This document shows positions 36,742 to 59,729 of a DNA stretch of 64,000 nucleotides, piece by piece; position 1 is the stretch's first letter; every line of letters starts with the position of its first letter. This stretch comes from Reyranella sp. (GTDB lineage Bacteria; Pseudomonadota; Alphaproteobacteria; Reyranellales; Reyranellaceae), in contig JAIEOV010000009.1 of NCBI GenBank assembly GCA_019750135.1, positions 276,398-340,397 of the forward strand, read 5' to 3'. The notes under the pieces are model-generated. The model ran no database searches. It saw only the letters and a list, made by a program, of their open reading frames with translations, and had not been told where the DNA came from. The position numbers were made by a program, and so were the translations under genes.

Positions 36742-38730
36742 TTATAACCCCAACCCCCGGCTTCGCCCGAACGACCAATCCACATCGCCGCTGGGCATGG
36801 CGACGCCGGAGACGGGGCGGCCGATATGCTGTTCGAGCGCGGGCCGCCACGGAACGAGGCTGAAGCCGAGGCCGTCATCGATCATGGCGAACCGGCCGCT
36901 GGCAAGCTGGGTTGAGCCGACAAGCTGGCCCACGACGTGATTGCCAGGAATGGCGGGCCGCCATTCCCGCCCCCGCTCGGCGGCGAGCGCCTTGCCGGCG
37001 CGCTCGATGTCGCGGATCTCAAGCCGCTGGACCAGGTCTTTGGGAGCCCGGATCCGGCCGCCGCCAAGGTCCGTGGCATAGCCCTTACCGGCAAGCCATT
37101 GCCGACGTCTGGCTAACGCCGTGCTCACTTCCTGGCCGAAGCCCTCGTCCGCCAGAGCGGTGCGCTGCCGGGACACCAGCTCGCGGTCTGACCGCGCGGG
37201 TAGGTCGGTCGGGATACGCCACCGGTCCACGTCGATCCGCTCGACATGGCCCGCCCGGCGCAACGCCTCCAGGCGCCGAACATGGGATCGGACGTAGGCC
37301 GCGGGATCGCCACCCAGGCGCTCGATGGCGCCGACGGCCTGCTCCAGATGCTCGGATGGGCGATAGATGCCTTCCTTTCCGGCCATGGCCAGGATGTTGC
37401 GGTCCGAGGCGCGCGAGCCAGCAGGCGCCGCGCCGGCTGCCACGCCCCGCTGGACCTCCTCGGCTCGGGCCGGGTCCATCTCGAGGTGATGGACACGCCC
37501 GTCCACGCCGTCGATGACGAGCCGCACCCGCTCGCCCATCTCGTCGCCGCCCAGGCCCTTGTCGAGCACCCGGCCGACGATGGACTCCGTTGGCTCTCGC
37601 CCGTGGAGGACGTAGCGCCCGATAGCCCGTTGCTCAGCTAGGCCCTCGCGATCGAGCGCCCGGTGCATGGCCTTGATGAGGTCGCCGCGCTCGCCCATCT
37701 CCCACAAGGCGGGCTCGGCCTGGGGCGACACCGTCCAGCGGCCGGTTTCGACTTCAGTGGCGAGGCCCATGCGCTCCAACTTGCGCGCCCGCTGGATCAG
37801 CAGGGCCCGGTTCTGCCAGAGGCTGTCCAGCATGTCCCTGTCTGGCCGCAGGTCGGCGAACTCGTTGCGGCTCCGCTGCTCAGCGATCAGCATGCGGTCC
37901 AACCGCGTGAAGCGATCGGCATCGACCTCCCGGTCCAAGCTGCGCGTGACCTCCTGCTCGGCCTGCCGGCCGAGCTCTTGGGTGACGACATCGCTCGCCG
38001 CTCCCGGATGCCGTGGGCGATGTAGTCGCCGGCGATGTTGAGGGTCTTGCCGTCGTCGGTCATGGAGAATGATGTGGGTGTGGGGATGACCGGTGTTGTG
38101 GTGATCGACCGCGATCCAGTCGCGCCTGGTGCCGAGATCGGCTTCCATCTGCCTCATCAGATCGCGCGTTGTGGCGCGCGGATCGGAGACTTCGACGCCG
38201 TCCTCCGCCAACACGATGAAGCGGAACTGGTGACGGTCTTCACGGCCACGTTAGACGAAGGCTCGGCCATCCTTTAGATCGCGTTCAGCCGAGTAGACTC
38301 CCTTTTCGCCGTCCTTCGTCACGCTGTCGCGTTGGAGATAGCGCAGGTGCGCGTCTACCGCCTTGGCGCTGACGAAAGCACGCCCGCGCGCTGCCCCATC
38401 TTGGGGGTTGAGCTTCACGACCCGGGCCTTGACCGCGACGCGCCGCGACCACGTACGGACCGCTCCGTCCCGGCTCCAGGGGCTCCGATTCTTCAGCGCC
38501 ACCGCCACCGCCGCGCCACGACCACGCGCATTGAACCGGCCGCTTCCCTTCCCGGTCCCGTTCAGGCGGGTGGGGTCGCCGCCGGCCCGGCGAATAGCCT
38601 GCTGGATCTGTCCCGTGAAGCTGGTCGGACGGGCGCGGACCCCACGCGCGCGGCGTCCGCCAAGTCGCTCACTACTCAGATCGCGGATCTTGCCGGGACG
38701 GAGTCGAAAGTCATCGTCATCGCGTGCCAT
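36742..38730 (-). pseudogene. RlxS/VirD2-like relaxase (DUF3363 type), decayed
   Basis: N-terminus MARDDDDFRLRPGKIRDL...GRAFV* (stop at about 38248..38250); reading resumes RGREDRHQFRF...VDHHNTGHPHTHIIL; two compensating indels follow. Confidence 0.8.
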
Positions 38731-38812
38731 GGCATGACGATGGAAGCCGCGCGAAAGCCCGCAAAAGGCTGACTGCACGCGCCGTCGTGCAGAGTGACGT
38801 TGCCCCCAACTT

Positions 38813-39000
38813 TTATCCAGGTGCAACTGGAGTCTGGCGCTGCTCGGTTTGGTCGGTGGTAAGGGGCCAAGGCGCGAAGCCTTTCGCGAGCGCAGCGCCT
38901 TGGCCCCGTTGCGTCGAGAGCTGCTCGGCATAGGCGGCGGGCGTCAGCCAGCCGATGCGCGAATGGGGGCGCACGGTGTTGTACAACAGGGTTTTGAGAA
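38813..39000 (-). pseudogene. IS3-family transposase C-terminal remnant
   Basis: LLYNTVRPHSRIGWLTPAAYAEQLSTQRGQGAALAKGFAPW. Confidence 0.7.
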
Positions 39001-39037
39001 CGCCCACGGGACTGGCTTTCGTGAGCTTTTGTATCGA

Positions 39038-39345
39038 TGGCATCCGTGGTTTGGTCTTCGCGTTTGCATCCATGGGACGATCGACAAGGCCGGTGGTGTT
39101 GTTTTCCGTTGCACGCTGAGCGGGTCTGACGCGGATCGCTGGCTGGAGGTCCCAGCGTGGATGTTCGATCACACCGCTTGCGCGGGCCGGGCGACGCTTT
39201 CGACGAGCCCATTTGTCGACATGGCGGCGCTGTCGGCCTTGGGGAAGCTTCTGGCGGATCTGCTCAAGGCGCGCCCTGCATCATCGAATGCGCCGCTTTC
39301 CGGCGCATCATGTGCCTCTCGCGAGCAGAATCGGGGAGAGGCCCA
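39038..39345 (+). CDS. Small accessory protein, DUF5372-like fragment
   Basis: WHPWFGLRVCIHGTIDKAGGVVFRCTLSGSDADRWLEVPAWMFDHTACAGRATLSTSPFVDMAALSALGKLL; N-terminus not clear. Confidence 0.35.
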
Positions 39346-39590
39346 TGTCAGGGAAGACAGCATCCTGCCGGGCGGCGGCACGGCAGAGCCGGACCAAGTA
39401 CGGTCGGCGGCGCAAGCCAGAGCAGATGGATCTGTTCGGAAGCGGCCAGTCCAGCGTCGTGATCGGCGCGCCGGCGTGGCCGGAACTGCCGGCGGAGACG
39501 CAGCGTGCGCTGATCAGGCTGATGGCGCAGCTGCTTCTGGAACATGCGGACGAGAGCCCAGCCATGACGGGGGCCGGTCATGATCTCTGA
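39345..39590 (+). CDS. Small protein upstream of recombinase
   Basis: MSGKTASCRAAARQSRTKYGRRRKPEQMDLFGSGQ...; overlaps recombinase start at 39580. Confidence 0.45.
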   Translation: MSGKTASCRAAARQSRTKYGRRRKPEQMDLFGSGQSSVVIGAPAWPELPAETQRALIRLMAQLLLEHADESPAMTGAGHDL

Positions 39591-41647
39591 GAAGATCCGC
39601 CCCCATCATCTGGAGCGCAAGGCGCAGCTCTATGTCCGCCAATCGTCAGTCCATCAGGTGCAGCACAATCGCGAGAGCGGCGCGCTGCAATATGCCATGC
39701 AGGGTCGTCTGAGAGCGCTCGGGTGGTCTGCGATCGAGGTCATCGATGATGATCTTGGCCGTTCGGCAGCGGGCGGCGTCCAGCGCGCCGGCTTCGAGTG
39801 CATGGTGGCGGAGGTGTGCCTCGGCAAGGTCGGCGCAGTATGCGCGCGGGAAGTCTCGCGCTTCGCCCGTAACAGCCGGGACTGGCAGCAGCTGATCGAG
39901 ATGTGCCGCGTGGTCGACACTGTGCTGATCGACCAGGAGACAGTATACGCACCGCGCCAGGGCAATGATCGGCTGCTGCTCGGCCTGAAGGTAGCCTCAA
40001 CGAGTACGAACTCGATCTCTTGCGCCAGCGCTCGCTCTCGGCCCGCCACGAGAAGGCGCGCCGCGGAGAGCTCGTCGTCGGGGCGCCGGTGGGTTTCGTG
40101 AAGGTCGGCGATCGCTACGAGAAGGATCCAGACCAGCGTGTGCAGCAAGCCATCACGCTGGTTTTCGACAAGGTTCAGGAACTGGGCAGTGCCCGTCAGG
40201 CGTTGCTGTGGTTCCTCGAGCATGATCTTGATCTGCCGGTGAAGCGGAGTAACGGTGACATCGCCTGGCGGCGGCCCAACTATGCCTCGATCCACCGGAT
40301 GATCGAGAACCCGATCTACGGCGGCGCCTATGCCTATGGTAAGACGGCAGTGGCGGCGGGCCATGGCGCTGCGGGCGTCGGCGTGAAGATCCGCCGCAAG
40401 GCGCGCAGCGAATGGCTGGCGCTGATGCCGAACGCGCATGAGGGCTATGTCAGCTGGGAGAAGTCCGAGGCGATCCGGATAATGGTCAGCAACAACGTCC
40501 CCACCAGCCGCCATCACGGGGCGCCCAAGCACGGCGATGCTTTGCTGGCCGGCCTGATCCGGTGCCGTCGTTGTGGACGCAAGCTGACGCTCCGATACTC
40601 CGGTTGAAGCACTCGATCCCACGCTACAGCTGCAGCCGGGGCTGGATGGACAATGGCGAGCCGCGGTGCATCACCTTTGGCGGTCTGCGCGTCGACGATA
40701 CCATCGAAGATGCAGTTCTCGGTGTTGTCGGTCCCGGTGCCATCGCAGCCGCGGTGGCCGCCGAGCAGGAAGGAGACCAGCGGCGGGACCAGGTGCGGGC
40801 GGCTCTTCTGCGCGATCTCGAGGCCGCGCGTTACACGGCCGATCGCGCCTTCCGCCAATACGATGCAACCGACCCCGCGAACCGCCTCGTGGCCGGCGAG
40901 CTTGAAGCACGCTGGAACAAGGCGCTTGCCCGTGTCGCGGAGGTCGAGAGCAAGATCGCCGCGCTCGACGCAGCGCGACCAATACCTGCTCGCGATCCGG
41001 CGTCACTGGCAACGCTCGCGACGGACCTCGAGACCATTTGGTCCGCGCCAACGACGGATGCGCGACTGAAGAAACGTATCGTGCGCACCCTGATCCAGGA
41101 GGTCGTTGCCGACATCGATCCGGAAGCCGCAGAGATCATTCTCGTGGTTCACTGGATCGGCGGTGTGCACAGCGAGATACGCCTGCCCAGGCGGCGGCGC
41201 GGGCAACGCAACGGCACCTCCGCCGACATCATTGCCGCTGTGCGCACGCTGGCCTTGATCGCCAATGACGATCTCATCGCCGGCATTCTGAACCGCAACG
41301 GGGTCGTCACAGGCAACGGCAATCGCTGGACACGCGAGCGCGTTACTTCGCTGCGATCTCACCACTGCATCCCGGTGTACAAAGCCGCCCCCGATAACAT
41401 CGAGCCGTGGCTAAACCTCAGCACGGCAGCGCATCTTCTCAAGATCGCACCAAAGACGCTCAGGCTGGCGGCGGAAGCTGGCGAGATTGCCGCCGTCCAC
41501 CCCTTGCCGGATGGTCCCTGGATCTTCAGCCGCGCCGCTCTCTCATCGTCAGCAGCGCGCGTTATCGCGGAACACGCCCGGCACAATCCTAAATACCCCA
41601 CGGGATCGCATCCCGATCAGCAAAACCTATTCTCTTCAACCACATAG
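39580..41647 (+). pseudogene. Serine recombinase split by two frameshifts; C-terminal HTH
   Basis: Three ORFs in order: KAQLYVRQSSVHQVQHNRESG...NDRLLLGLK / [25 protein letters not shown]...LRYSG* / KHSIPRYSCSRGWMDNGEPRCITFGGLRVDD... Confidence 0.85.
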
Positions 41648-41900
41648 ACAGATGGGTGTTCAGATGCATGGTTGTAGTGCCGGCGCCAGGCCTCGATCAC
41701 GACCTTGGCCTCGACCCGCGAGCGGAACCATTCGAGGCCAGGCACTCGTCGCGGAACTTGCCGTTGAAGCTCTCGGTGGCACCGTTCTGCCACGGCTTGC
41801 CGGGATCGATCAGGACGATCTCGATGCCCTGCTCGACGATCCACTCGAGCAGTGCCCGCGCGACGTGTGTGTCGGCTTCCCGTTCTTGAAGTAAATGACG
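41640..41900 (-). pseudogene. IS3-family transposase remnant (DDE core, frameshifted)
   Basis: EWIVEQGIEIVLIDPGKPWQNGATESFNGKFRDECL then in another frame EWFRSRVEAKVVIEAWRRHYN. Confidence 0.8.
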
Positions 41901-42202
41901 ATGTTCTCGGGTCCGTAGGACTGGCCTTCGATGCGGACTTCGCCGTGCTCGATCAGCTTTGCCATGAAGTCGCTCTTGGCGAGCACGCGGCAACCGCGTT
42001 CAACGAAAAGCCGCTGGAACTCGGGCATCCGCTCTATTTGCAAGCCGTGGGCGTGGCAGTTGTAGGTCTTGTCCCGGTCTATGATCTGAAGCCGGTGCCC
42101 GCCCATAGTGATCAACTGCTCCCAGGCAGCCGCGAATTGGCTCGGATACTCGATCACCATAACCGCATCGATGTCCTTCTGAAGTTCTGGATCACCATTC
42201 AT
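41895..42202 (-). pseudogene. Hypothetical gene (NCHAHGL motif) truncated by the IS3 remnant
   Basis: MNGDPELQKDIDAVMVIEYPSQFAAAWEQLITMGGHRLQIIDRDKTYNCHAHGLQIERMPEFQRLFVERG... Confidence 0.5.
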
Positions 42203-55676: not shown

Positions 55677-56130
55677 ATGTCATCTCTTGCGATCCTCCCT
55701 ATCGGCGTTTTCGCCGACAGATCCGACACCCCGATCGAAACAATTCGCACCTATGAGCGCCTTGGCTTGGTGGCCAGGTCGCGACGCGCGGCGCAAGTTC
55801 TTCGACCTGGCTCGCCTCACCAAGGCGCCGATCGCTCTCGAAACGGTCGCTCGCATCGATGCGTTGTTCGCCATCGAGCGCGACCTCAACGGACTGTCAC
55901 CCGACGAGCGCAAGCGCGCGCCGCCAAGAGCGCAGCCGCCCGCTAGCCGAAGCATTGGGAACTTGGCTGCGCGAGCAGTACGTCAGGCTCTCGTCCAACA
56001 GCCAGGTCGCCAAGGCGATTGCCTACAGCCTGAACTGCTGGGACGCCCTGGTTCGCTTCCTCGACGACGGCCGCCTCTGCCTCAGCAACAACGCCGCCGA
56101 GCGGGCGCTGCGCTGCATCGCGATGAGGCA
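55677..56130 (+). pseudogene. Degenerate MerR HTH fragment followed by IS66 TnpC C-terminal remnant
   Basis: LPIGVFADRSDTPIETIRTYERLGLVARSR then RRKFFDLARLTKAPIALETVARIDALFAIERDLNG... and YVRLSSNSQVAKAIAYSLNCWDALVRFLDDGRLCLSNNAAERALRCIAM. Confidence 0.75.
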
Positions 56131-56149
56131 TTCATTGTGCACCTCGTTC

Positions 56150-57925
56150 TCAAGTGTCTGTAAACATTGGAACTTGGTTTTCGGGATCGACGCGACACGG
56201 GCGACCTTTCCGGCGGATCGCGTGGTTGCTCACGCCAAGCAGCTTGGCGGCTTCGCCCATCGTCAGCCACTCGCCGGTCTTCTCCGCCGAAGGGTAGGCA
56301 CGAATCCCATGCACCCTGCGCAGCGAACTGACACGATGCGCGGTCCAGGTTTTTCCCTGACCCGTCGGCATCCTCATCCGGTTCAACGACGCGGCGATGT
56401 CTTCGTCCGACCATCGGGTCGCTATGCTCCGCATGACGGCGAGGGCATCTTCGGGAGTGCGGCAGCCATGCTCGCCGGATTTTAGCTTGCGGACCCGAAG
56501 CTGCGAGTGCTGACCGCCCCGCCAATGGACCGTCAGCACGACCTCGCGTGCCGCCTCGTCGATGTCGGCGATGATGTCGGTGACCAGGGCGCGCAGGAGC
56601 CTTTGGCGGGCGCGCATGCTCACGCCCGCTGCATTCCACGCGGCTTCGAGGTCTTCTGCCAAACCGGCAAAGTTCGGCACAATGGCGGCCGGGTCCGGTG
56701 TCCGCACCGCCTGCAGCCGCGCCTCGCACGCCTCGACGCGCCGCAGCGCTGCTTCCCAGCTCTTCTCGAGCTGCGCGGCGATCAGGCGATTGTCGGGATC
56801 GCAGGCAGCGTAGCGTCGCTCCGCCAGCAAGGCTTCGTAGCGCGCCTGCTGAAGCTCGAGTTCCACGATGCGCTGCTGTTCGTCCCGGCTTTCCACGTGC
56901 AGTCTCTCGGCTTCCCGGGCCGCCTCGATCGCCATCGGTTCGACGGCGCGCAGAAGCTCCCGGGCAATGGCCGCGTCGACACGGGGTCCGCTGAAGGTCA
57001 GACACCGCGGCAGCCCCAACATCAGGTTGGGTCGGTCGCAGCGATAGACCGGCTGTCCCGGCGAGCGGCCCGAGTAGCTTACCACCAAGCGGCGGCCGCA
57101 ACGCCCACAGGACAGCAGCCCGGCCAGCAACGCCCGTCCGCCGCGCCGCCCAAGCTCCAGGGTGACGATCTCGCTTGCCCGCTCGCGGACACCGTGGGCG
57201 ATGTAGTCGCCGGCGATGTTGAGCATCTTGCCGTCGTCGGTGACGCCCCGCAGGAGGATGTGGGTGTGGGGATGGCCGGTGTTATGGTGATCGACCACGA
57301 TCCAGTCGAGCCGGGTGCCGAGGTCGGCTTCCATCTGCTTCATCAGATCGCAGGTAGTCTCCCGCAGGTCGGACAGTTCCACACCTTCTTCGGCCGAGAC
57401 GATGAAGCGAAACTGGTGGCGGTCCTCGCGGCCGCGGTCGAGGAAGGCGCGATCGTCCGCCACGTCACGGTCGGCCGAATAGATCTGGCCCTTCTCGCCG
57501 TCCCTGGTGACGCCGTCACGTTGGAGGTAGCGCAGGTGCGCGTCGACCGCCTTGGCCCTGGCGAACAGCCGACCGCGCCGAGCGCCGCGCTGCGGGTTGA
57601 GCTTCACGACGCGCGCCTTGACCGCGACCCGACGCGCCCGGGTGCGGTTGCCACTCCCGTCCCGGCTCCAGGGGCTGTGGTTCTTCAGCGTCACTGCCGC
57701 CGTCGCGCCACGGCCGCGCTCATTGAACCGGCCACCGCCCTTCGTCGCGGCCGCGCCCAGCCGATCGGGGGTGCCGCCGGCCCGCCGAAACGCCTGATGG
57801 ATCTCGCCCATGAAGCTGGTCGGACGGGCCCGGACCGCACGGACACGGCGGCCGCGCGGGCGCGCGATGCGACGGTCGTCAACCTTACCGGGCCGGATGC
57901 GGAAATCGTCGTCGTCGCGTGCCAT
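56150..57925 (-). CDS. Chimeric protein: RlxS-like relaxase N-terminus fused in frame to serine-recombinase zinc-ribbon/coiled-coil/HTH C-terminus
   Basis: MARDDDDFRIRPGKVDDRR...VDHHNTGHPHTHILLRGVTDDGKMLNIAGDYIAHGVRERASEIVTLELGRR joined to GGRALLAGLLSCGRCGRRLVVSYSGRSPGQPVYRCDRPNLMLGLPRCLTFSGPRVDAAIARELL...GEWLTMGEAAKLLGVSNHAIR. Confidence 0.85.
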   Translation of the reverse strand: MARDDDDFRIRPGKVDDRRIARPRGRRVRAVRARPTSFMGEIHQAFRRAGGTPDRLGAAATKGGGRFNERGRGATAAVTLKNHSPWSRDGSGNRTRARRVAVKARVVKLNPQRGARRGRLFARAKAVDAHLRYLQRDGVTRDGEKGQIYSADRDVADDRAFLDRGREDRHQFRFIVSAEEGVELSDLRETTCDLMKQMEADLGTRLDWIVVDHHNTGHPHTHILLRGVTDDGKMLNIAGDYIAHGVRERASEIVTLELGRRGGRALLAGLLSCGRCGRRLVVSYSGRSPGQPVYRCDRPNLMLGLPRCLTFSGPRVDAAIARELLRAVEPMAIEAAREAERLHVESRDEQQRIVELELQQARYEALLAERRYAACDPDNRLIAAQLEKSWEAALRRVEACEARLQAVRTPDPAAIVPNFAGLAEDLEAAWNAAGVSMRARQRLLRALVTDIIADIDEAAREVVLTVHWRGGQHSQLRVRKLKSGEHGCRTPEDALAVMRSIATRWSDEDIAASLNRMRMPTGQGKTWTAHRVSSLRRVHGIRAYPSAEKTGEWLTMGEAAKLLGVSNHAIRRKGRPCRVDPENQVPMFTDT

Positions 57926-58191
57926 GAGACGACGATCGGAAGCCGTGAGAAGGCCTACAAGAGGCGAGCGGCGGTCGTCGTACCGTGGCGTAGAACGACG
58001 TGCGCCAGCGTAGGTTGACCGGTCCACACTTCGCGGCGACGGCGCTCGGCACCTTGTAAACAAAGGGAAAAGCGGCACAAGCGCCGCACCCGCTCCTCGG
58101 CGGGTCGTCACGAGCGGAGCGGCAAACAACGTGCAGACAGGCTTTCAGGCGCATGGCGCCGACAGCGGGGCAACCCGCTTTATCTTGCCGT

Positions 58192-59729
58192 CCTAATCAG
58201 GCCTGTTAAGTCAAGATGCTCGTTCGCTTTTCTCCGGTTTACCTTCCATCGTCACCCACCTTCCGCACTGTCTGAACAGCGCACGGAGTCCGTTTGTCGA
58301 CGCGCACTCAGCTTGTATTCTCCAGGCGGGGTCCATGCGTTCCTTCGCGATCAGCACAGGGCCGTCGCATGCTCTTCAACAGTCGTGAACAGAGGTCCAA
58401 GCAGTCATAGCGCTCTCATCCTCGATGGACGGCAGCCGGCAAGATAGCGTACATTCCCTGTTTCGCGGCCCGCCAGGGTACGCTCACTGCGCGCGCGGAT
58501 CTCGATCTTCATCTCCTCTCGTGCAGATCTTCGACAACTTCACTACAGAATGATCGCCCTCGATGTGGCACGGCCTTTCTATGCCGGCGTCAACCTGAGC
58601 TTCTCGACAACCTTGGCCCCGAAGCCTATCTGGAACTCCGTACCGTCAATCCACATGCGATGCAGGATACCTGACAGCTTGCGGGCGACGGCCACGATCG
58701 CGCAAAGCATGCTCGTCCGCTTGGCCACGCGTAATCCCCAGGCACGCAAGGCCGAGTAGCGCTTTACCCGCAACAGCAAGCTCGCTGCCGCCTCACAAAG
58801 AGCTTCGCGGACAGCGCCGTCGCCTTGCTTGGTGATGTGTCCGTCGAAGTCGACGGATGTTCCGGATTGATGGCGTCTGGGCGTCAGGCCGAAGTGCGCT
58901 CCGACTGTTCGCGACCGGGCGAAGCGCAGCGGATCATCGACGCCAACCTTGAACGACAGCGCTGCAACCGGACCGACGCCCGGCACGGTCATAAACCGCC
59001 GGCAAACGGCATCATGCTGCACCACCCGCAAGAGAATCTTGTGCAATCGATTGAAGCCCTCCGAGACCGCACGGCGCACATCGAGCATGGTCTCGATCAT
59101 TGCCAAGAAGACGAGGTCGGTACGCTCGATCAGCTGCGCACCCGCGCTTCGAAGCTCCCTCGGCTGACCGAGCCGACCTGAGACCACCCTGGATATGGTT
59201 CTCCATGTCGATGAGCTTGCGCTTCAAGAGCTTGCGGTGGACAGAAGCGTGCGCAGTCGCTGCGTCTCGATGTTCTTCACGTGTACTGCCCGGAACCAGC
59301 CCAACCGCATCATCTGGGCAATGCCGCGGGGCATCTTTGCGGTCGGTCCTGTTGCGCATGGCCGGCAGCGAGACATGCATGTGTTATGCTTCCACGACGA
59401 TCATCGGAAGACCACCCGGATGCAACTCGCGATAGAGCCAAAGCCCAATCGACGACGCTTCCAAGCCTATCCGCTGCACGCCCTCTGCGAAGCTCGCCAG
59501 GGCCGACCGAATCGCATCCGGATCGGTCGGAACCTTCGCCTCGCGGACGTTCTTGCCTTTTCGGTCCACGATGCAAACGCTGGTCTCCTCGAGGCCAACG
59601 TCCAGTCCAACATACACTTCCATGGCAGACTCCCTTCCATGGCAACGATCGTCTGCGATCGTTGCATCAGGCTCCCAAGTGCCGCCACCGCGATTGCTTC
59701 CAACGGTCGCCTAGTCGAGCCTGATTAGG
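58192..59729 (-). mobile_element. IS110-family insertion sequence with decayed transposase
   Basis: N-terminal MEVYVGLDVGLEETSVCIVDRKGKNVREAKV (59384..59623) and C-terminal MTVPGVGPVAALSFKVGVDDPLRFARSRTVGAHFGLTPRRHQSG (58579..59187); 11-bp inverted CCTAATCAGGC at 58192..58202 and 59719..59729. Confidence 0.75.
59643..59725 (-). ncRNA. Candidate structured RNA (bridge-RNA-like) in the non-coding end of the IS110 element
   Basis: Perfect 9-bp hairpin CAACGATCG-TCTG-CGATCGTTG (59643..59664) and long-range pair ATCAGGCTC (59666..59674) / GAGCCTGAT (59717..59725). Confidence 0.35.

Follow-up and report, generated by a model that had tools for sequence, protein, structure and literature searches.

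Conserved families such as the relaxase-helicase TraI/TrwC and the relaxase-primase MobA join an HUH nuclease to a second DNA-acting part. Among the MOBP1 relaxases, RlxS (profile NF041267) of ICEMlSymR7A belongs to a conserved transfer set that includes trb and traG (PMC8627217). Serine integrases contact the att half-site jointly through their recombinase domain and zinc ribbon, and a coiled coil is inserted in the zinc domain (PMC3783163). Titles and abstracts of the literature contained no description of relaxase-serine recombinase chimeras, nor of serine recombinases residing in IS66 tnpC genes, and those found under TRm30 held nothing relevant.

The gene described here resembles these systems only in part. 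In the window (the whole stretch of 64,000 nucleotides of Reyranella sp. that was analyzed), a single ORF of 591 amino acids, at 57925 to 56150 on the minus strand, begins as an RlxS-type relaxase and ends as a large serine recombinase. It opens with an ATG that is common to its relatives, which likewise begin with MARDDDDF, and its stop codon lies at 56152-56150. The features of the locus are as follows, with loci from other genomes cited by L numbers.

57926 to 58598, minus strand: sequence preceding the relaxase gene, collinear with L008 (85.5% identity over 58598-57145)
57146 to 57925, minus strand: N-terminal part of an RlxS-type relaxase (HUH nuclease region, without DUF3363), residues 1-260; supported by NF041267, PF03432, 88% identity to L006, and the end of the relatives' DNA match at 57147-57145
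57260 to 57289, minus strand: metal-binding HUH motif HHNTGHPHTH at residues 213-222, intact in a comparison of 14 relaxases
57145 to 57146, minus strand: fusion junction, where one base (C) fits both parents; base-level comparison of 10 relaxases and 9 recombinases
56150 to 57145, minus strand: residues 261-591, the C-terminal half of a large serine recombinase, with the zinc ribbon, a presumed coiled coil, and a truncated C-terminus; L021 at 83% amino acid identity and 82% by blastn
56954 to 57130, minus strand: zinc beta-ribbon, residues 266-324, with four cysteines (PF13408 and sequence)
56209 to 56210, minus strand: position of an in-frame deletion of 108 bp (36 amino acids, most of the C-terminal HTH_17 gone); alignment to L020, L021, L022, and L027
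56116 to 56149, minus strand: right-hand end of the recombinase element (AGGTGCACAATGAATGCCTCATCGC), directly next to IS66 tnpC and conserved in relatives
55786 to 56131, plus strand: frameshifted fragment of IS66 tnpC, host gene of the recombinase element (PF03050 in two frames; DNA 79.6% identical to L007 and L062 across 56221-55786)

Unlike the neighboring genes, neither half contains a frameshift or a stop. On the relaxase side, Pfam places Relaxase (PF03432) at residues 167-240, with the nuclease part uninterrupted to the end of this match, and residues 25-264 align with positions 8-228 of the 654 in the RlxS profile. The closest relatives are RlxS-type relaxases of sister species, at 88% protein identity over 260 amino acids (L006; the L084 protein is the same there), and H213, H214, H220, and H222 of the metal-binding motif are invariant across the relaxases compared. 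On the recombinase side, Zn_ribbon_recom (PF13408) covers residues 266-324 and retains its four cysteines (LSCGRC, YRC, and PRC). The closest protein is L021 (692 amino acids), with 83% identity over the aligned part and a blastn match of 82% over 900 bp. Like other large serine recombinases borne in IS66 tnpC, this half has the zinc ribbon, the coiled-coil region, the C-terminal tail, and a right end next to tnpC. A PDB search with the chimera gave no meaningful match. The preliminary description, made from the letters alone, had proposed a relaxase of about 260 residues with its HUH motif, running in frame into a recombinase within an ORF of 591 amino acids, and the Pfam, NCBIfam, and blastn results agree with it.

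When the locus is compared with its relatives by blastn, the matches fall into two disjoint sets, as the relaxase loci end and the closest recombinase loci begin at 57147-57145. The junction is sharp and lies at 57146/57145, only a few bases from the position near 57140 given originally. There the relaxases read ..CTG GGC CGG CAG ACC.., the recombinases ..AAG TCG GGC CGC GGC GGA.., and the chimera ..CTT GGG CGG CGC GGC GGA... Since the parents have only about 1 bp in common at this point, the join is illegitimate rather than a product of homologous recombination. The meeting of two unrelated families at one base position is far beyond chance. The retained frame is weak evidence by itself, as its chance is 1/3 for the fusion and 1/3 for the 108-bp deletion. 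Both breakpoints fall in interdomain linkers: the relaxase breaks at residue 260, while DUF3363 begins at 323 in L008, and the recombinase breaks between the end of the Recombinase domain (312 in L021) and the start of the zinc ribbon (331). Such a placement is somewhat unlikely by chance, although it was spotted post hoc.

What the fusion lacks separates it from each of its parents. Compared with RlxS, it has no DUF3363, which Pfam finds at 323-708 of L008, and its NF041267 score of 261 is below the family cut-off of 850. Compared with the tnpC-borne recombinases, it has neither the Resolvase catalytic domain (PF00239), present in L021, nor the Recombinase domain (PF07508), and the deletion removed 36 residues of the HTH_17 region; this domain is found in full-length L021 (618-663) and is undetected in the chimera, which is 36 residues shorter there. 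The loss of the recombinase catalytic N-terminus and of the relaxase C-terminus had been recognized from the start, with PF07508 overlooked, and an HTH said to follow the coiled coil has in fact been cut. The idea that the second half supplies a complete sequence-specific binding module is weakened as well, because PF07508 and most of the HTH are missing and contact with the att half-site needs the recombinase domain together with the zinc ribbon. The genome also appears to lack the usual partners of RlxS. No family-level match to a VirB4/TrbE-type ATPase (PF03135) or a VirD4/TraG coupling protein (PF02534) was found in the assembly, with positive controls, so no trb/traG type IV secretion system with which an RlxS could work was detected. 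Relaxase matches in the assembly are two in total, the chimera and a broken copy.

We looked for the same junction in other genomes, as had been suggested, and did not find it. It occurs in none of the relatives in a whole-protein search of 101 genomes (its own and 100 relatives), and a junction-spanning probe of 114 amino acids gave no match across the junction in 76 genomes of the order. It was likewise not found in about 72,500 plasmids, nor in scans of about 85,000 GTDB species genomes and of IMG/VR, which were pattern based and not as complete as the whole-genome searches. Across all these sources, other sequences match one half or the other, and residues 1-260 and 261-591 occur together only in this genome. 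A conserved relaxase-recombinase family, with the junction in independent genomes, is therefore not what the searches recovered. Whereas TraI/TrwC and MobA are conserved families, this chimera has been seen once, and its second part contains no enzyme domain.

The recombinase half derives from an element of about 2.6 kb, of which it forms the 3' part; this element consists of small ORFs and a recombinase of about 690 amino acids. Across Proteobacteria, the element lies antisense in IS66 tnpC at one site, at about codon 448, where the AERAxRxIALGRK motif has its Ile-Ala codons. It is found in tnpC in L021, L022, L027, L029, L031, L045, L060, L066, L068, L072-L075, L113, and others, and also at 55786-56149 of the window. 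Of the 30 loci that have a right flank, 25 have tnpC next to the right end of the element; the left end borders on C-terminal tnpC sequence, and both ends are conserved. Isolated contigs of about 2586-2589 bp carry the recombinase in several genomes (among L020-L099, e.g., L023, L038, L052, L070, L071, and L097), a sign that the element may be multicopy and that assemblers break it out at its ends. The element has the appearance of a transposon with a transposase gene as its target.

The chimera is surrounded by IS debris, namely, the frameshifted IS66 tnpC, a split IS110 transposase, and the broken genes at 36.7-41.6 kb. The IS110-family transposase, at 58579-59623 upstream of the relaxase, has its Transposase_20 and DEDD_Tnp_IS110 domains in different frames, and an IS110-like ORF likewise lies upstream of the relaxase in L084. 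At 36742-38931 there is an RlxS-type relaxase pseudogene with an internal stop, frameshifts, and an interrupted DUF3363. A second serine-recombinase element (38813-41993), frameshifted and located at about 39.2-41.65 kb, is inserted in an IS3-family orfB between RRHYN and TVRPH, flanked on each side by rve_3 pieces. Here, too, a recombinase element sits inside a transposase gene.

The chimera is probably a one-off deletion fusion of two decaying mobile-element genes in this IS debris. The simplest account is a deletion fusion, which agrees with the finding that neither missing half is present elsewhere in the genome. At first, an rlxS-type relaxase gene would have lain in the same orientation as a serine-recombinase element, itself antisense in IS66 tnpC. 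An illegitimate deletion, with a microhomology of about 1 bp, would have taken the relaxase C-terminus together with the 5' part of the element, that is, its small ORFs, both the catalytic and the recombinase domain, and the remainder of tnpC. The reading frame would have survived by chance, and a second in-frame deletion of 108 bp, then or earlier, would have taken the HTH; this order of events and the co-orientation of the parents are reconstructed from the present arrangement. A deletion fusion had already been put forward and remains plausible, without its proposed source, a neighboring pair of the kind seen at 36.7-41.6 kb. There, the relaxase (minus strand) and the recombinase (plus strand) are divergent, so that deletion alone could not have placed both in one frame; both genes are already broken, and the recombinase is only about 40% identical to the half found in the chimera.

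A chimeric read or a misassembly could also have joined two loci, as this is a draft genome of 160 contigs with an estimated contamination of 5.4% and the junction is unique to it. We consider such an artefact unlikely. The single shared base is too little for a k-mer or overlap misjoin, the junction is internal to a contig of at least 340 kb, and the orphaned other halves are on no other contig. Elsewhere in the assembly, the lost relaxase C-terminus is represented only by a broken copy with 76% identity (about 37-38 kb) and the lost recombinase N-terminus only by relatives with 45-50% identity, and the absence of the missing halves favors a real loss over a misjoin. If the fusion is real, its protein could still act. 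The preliminary description had suggested a new mobilization enzyme, in which the HUH domain would nick DNA and the zinc-ribbon and coiled-coil tail would add sequence or partner binding, giving a mobilization or recombination protein. The intact HUH motif and zinc cysteines, the frame open for 591 codons, and the breakpoints in linkers are compatible with this idea, and relaxed selection was not seen. In polarized counts, the chimera branch has a dN/dS of 0.19 in the relaxase half, against 0.10 and 0.23 for two other branches, and of 0.09 in the recombinase half, against 0.11 and 0.17; at about 131 near-invariant recombinase columns, the chimera has 4 unique changes, inside the range of 72 sequences. 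By these values, the fusion is either recent or constrained, and dN/dS cannot separate the two, as the branch may for the most part be older than the fusion. Against a functional enzyme stand its occurrence in one genome only among the sources searched, the loss of the RlxS C-terminal domain and of the recombinase domain that contacts the att half-site with the zinc ribbon in large serine recombinases (PMC3783163), the cut HTH, and the absence of a conjugation ATPase and coupling protein from the assembly. A functional enzyme of this kind is thus very unlikely, and that the chimera is expressed as a newly born mobilization protein, with its tail giving the HUH nuclease a new DNA target or partner, seems very improbable.

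A role as a truncated relaxase is also very unlikely. Here, the recent fusion would keep some nicking activity in its HUH domain, or exert a dominant-negative effect on incoming rlxS-type elements, with the tail as a passenger. The native start and upstream region are retained, collinear with L008 to 58598, and the nuclease part is complete to the end of the PF03432 match; however, there is no positive sign of expression or activity, and an intact cognate element is not in the genome. The most likely state of the chimera is that of a one-off fusion of gene remnants, too recent to have decayed. If made, its product could at most be an isolated HUH nuclease domain that carries a zinc-ribbon tail; it is probably not a functional mobilization enzyme and most likely plays no part in transfer.

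Seen as a deletion fusion amid IS debris, this gene is ordinary, while a functional product would represent a relaxase-recombinase fusion of a kind absent from the searches made. The more useful by-product of the analysis lies in the anatomy of the recombinase half, which derives from a widespread site-specific element at one conserved codon of IS66 transposase genes.
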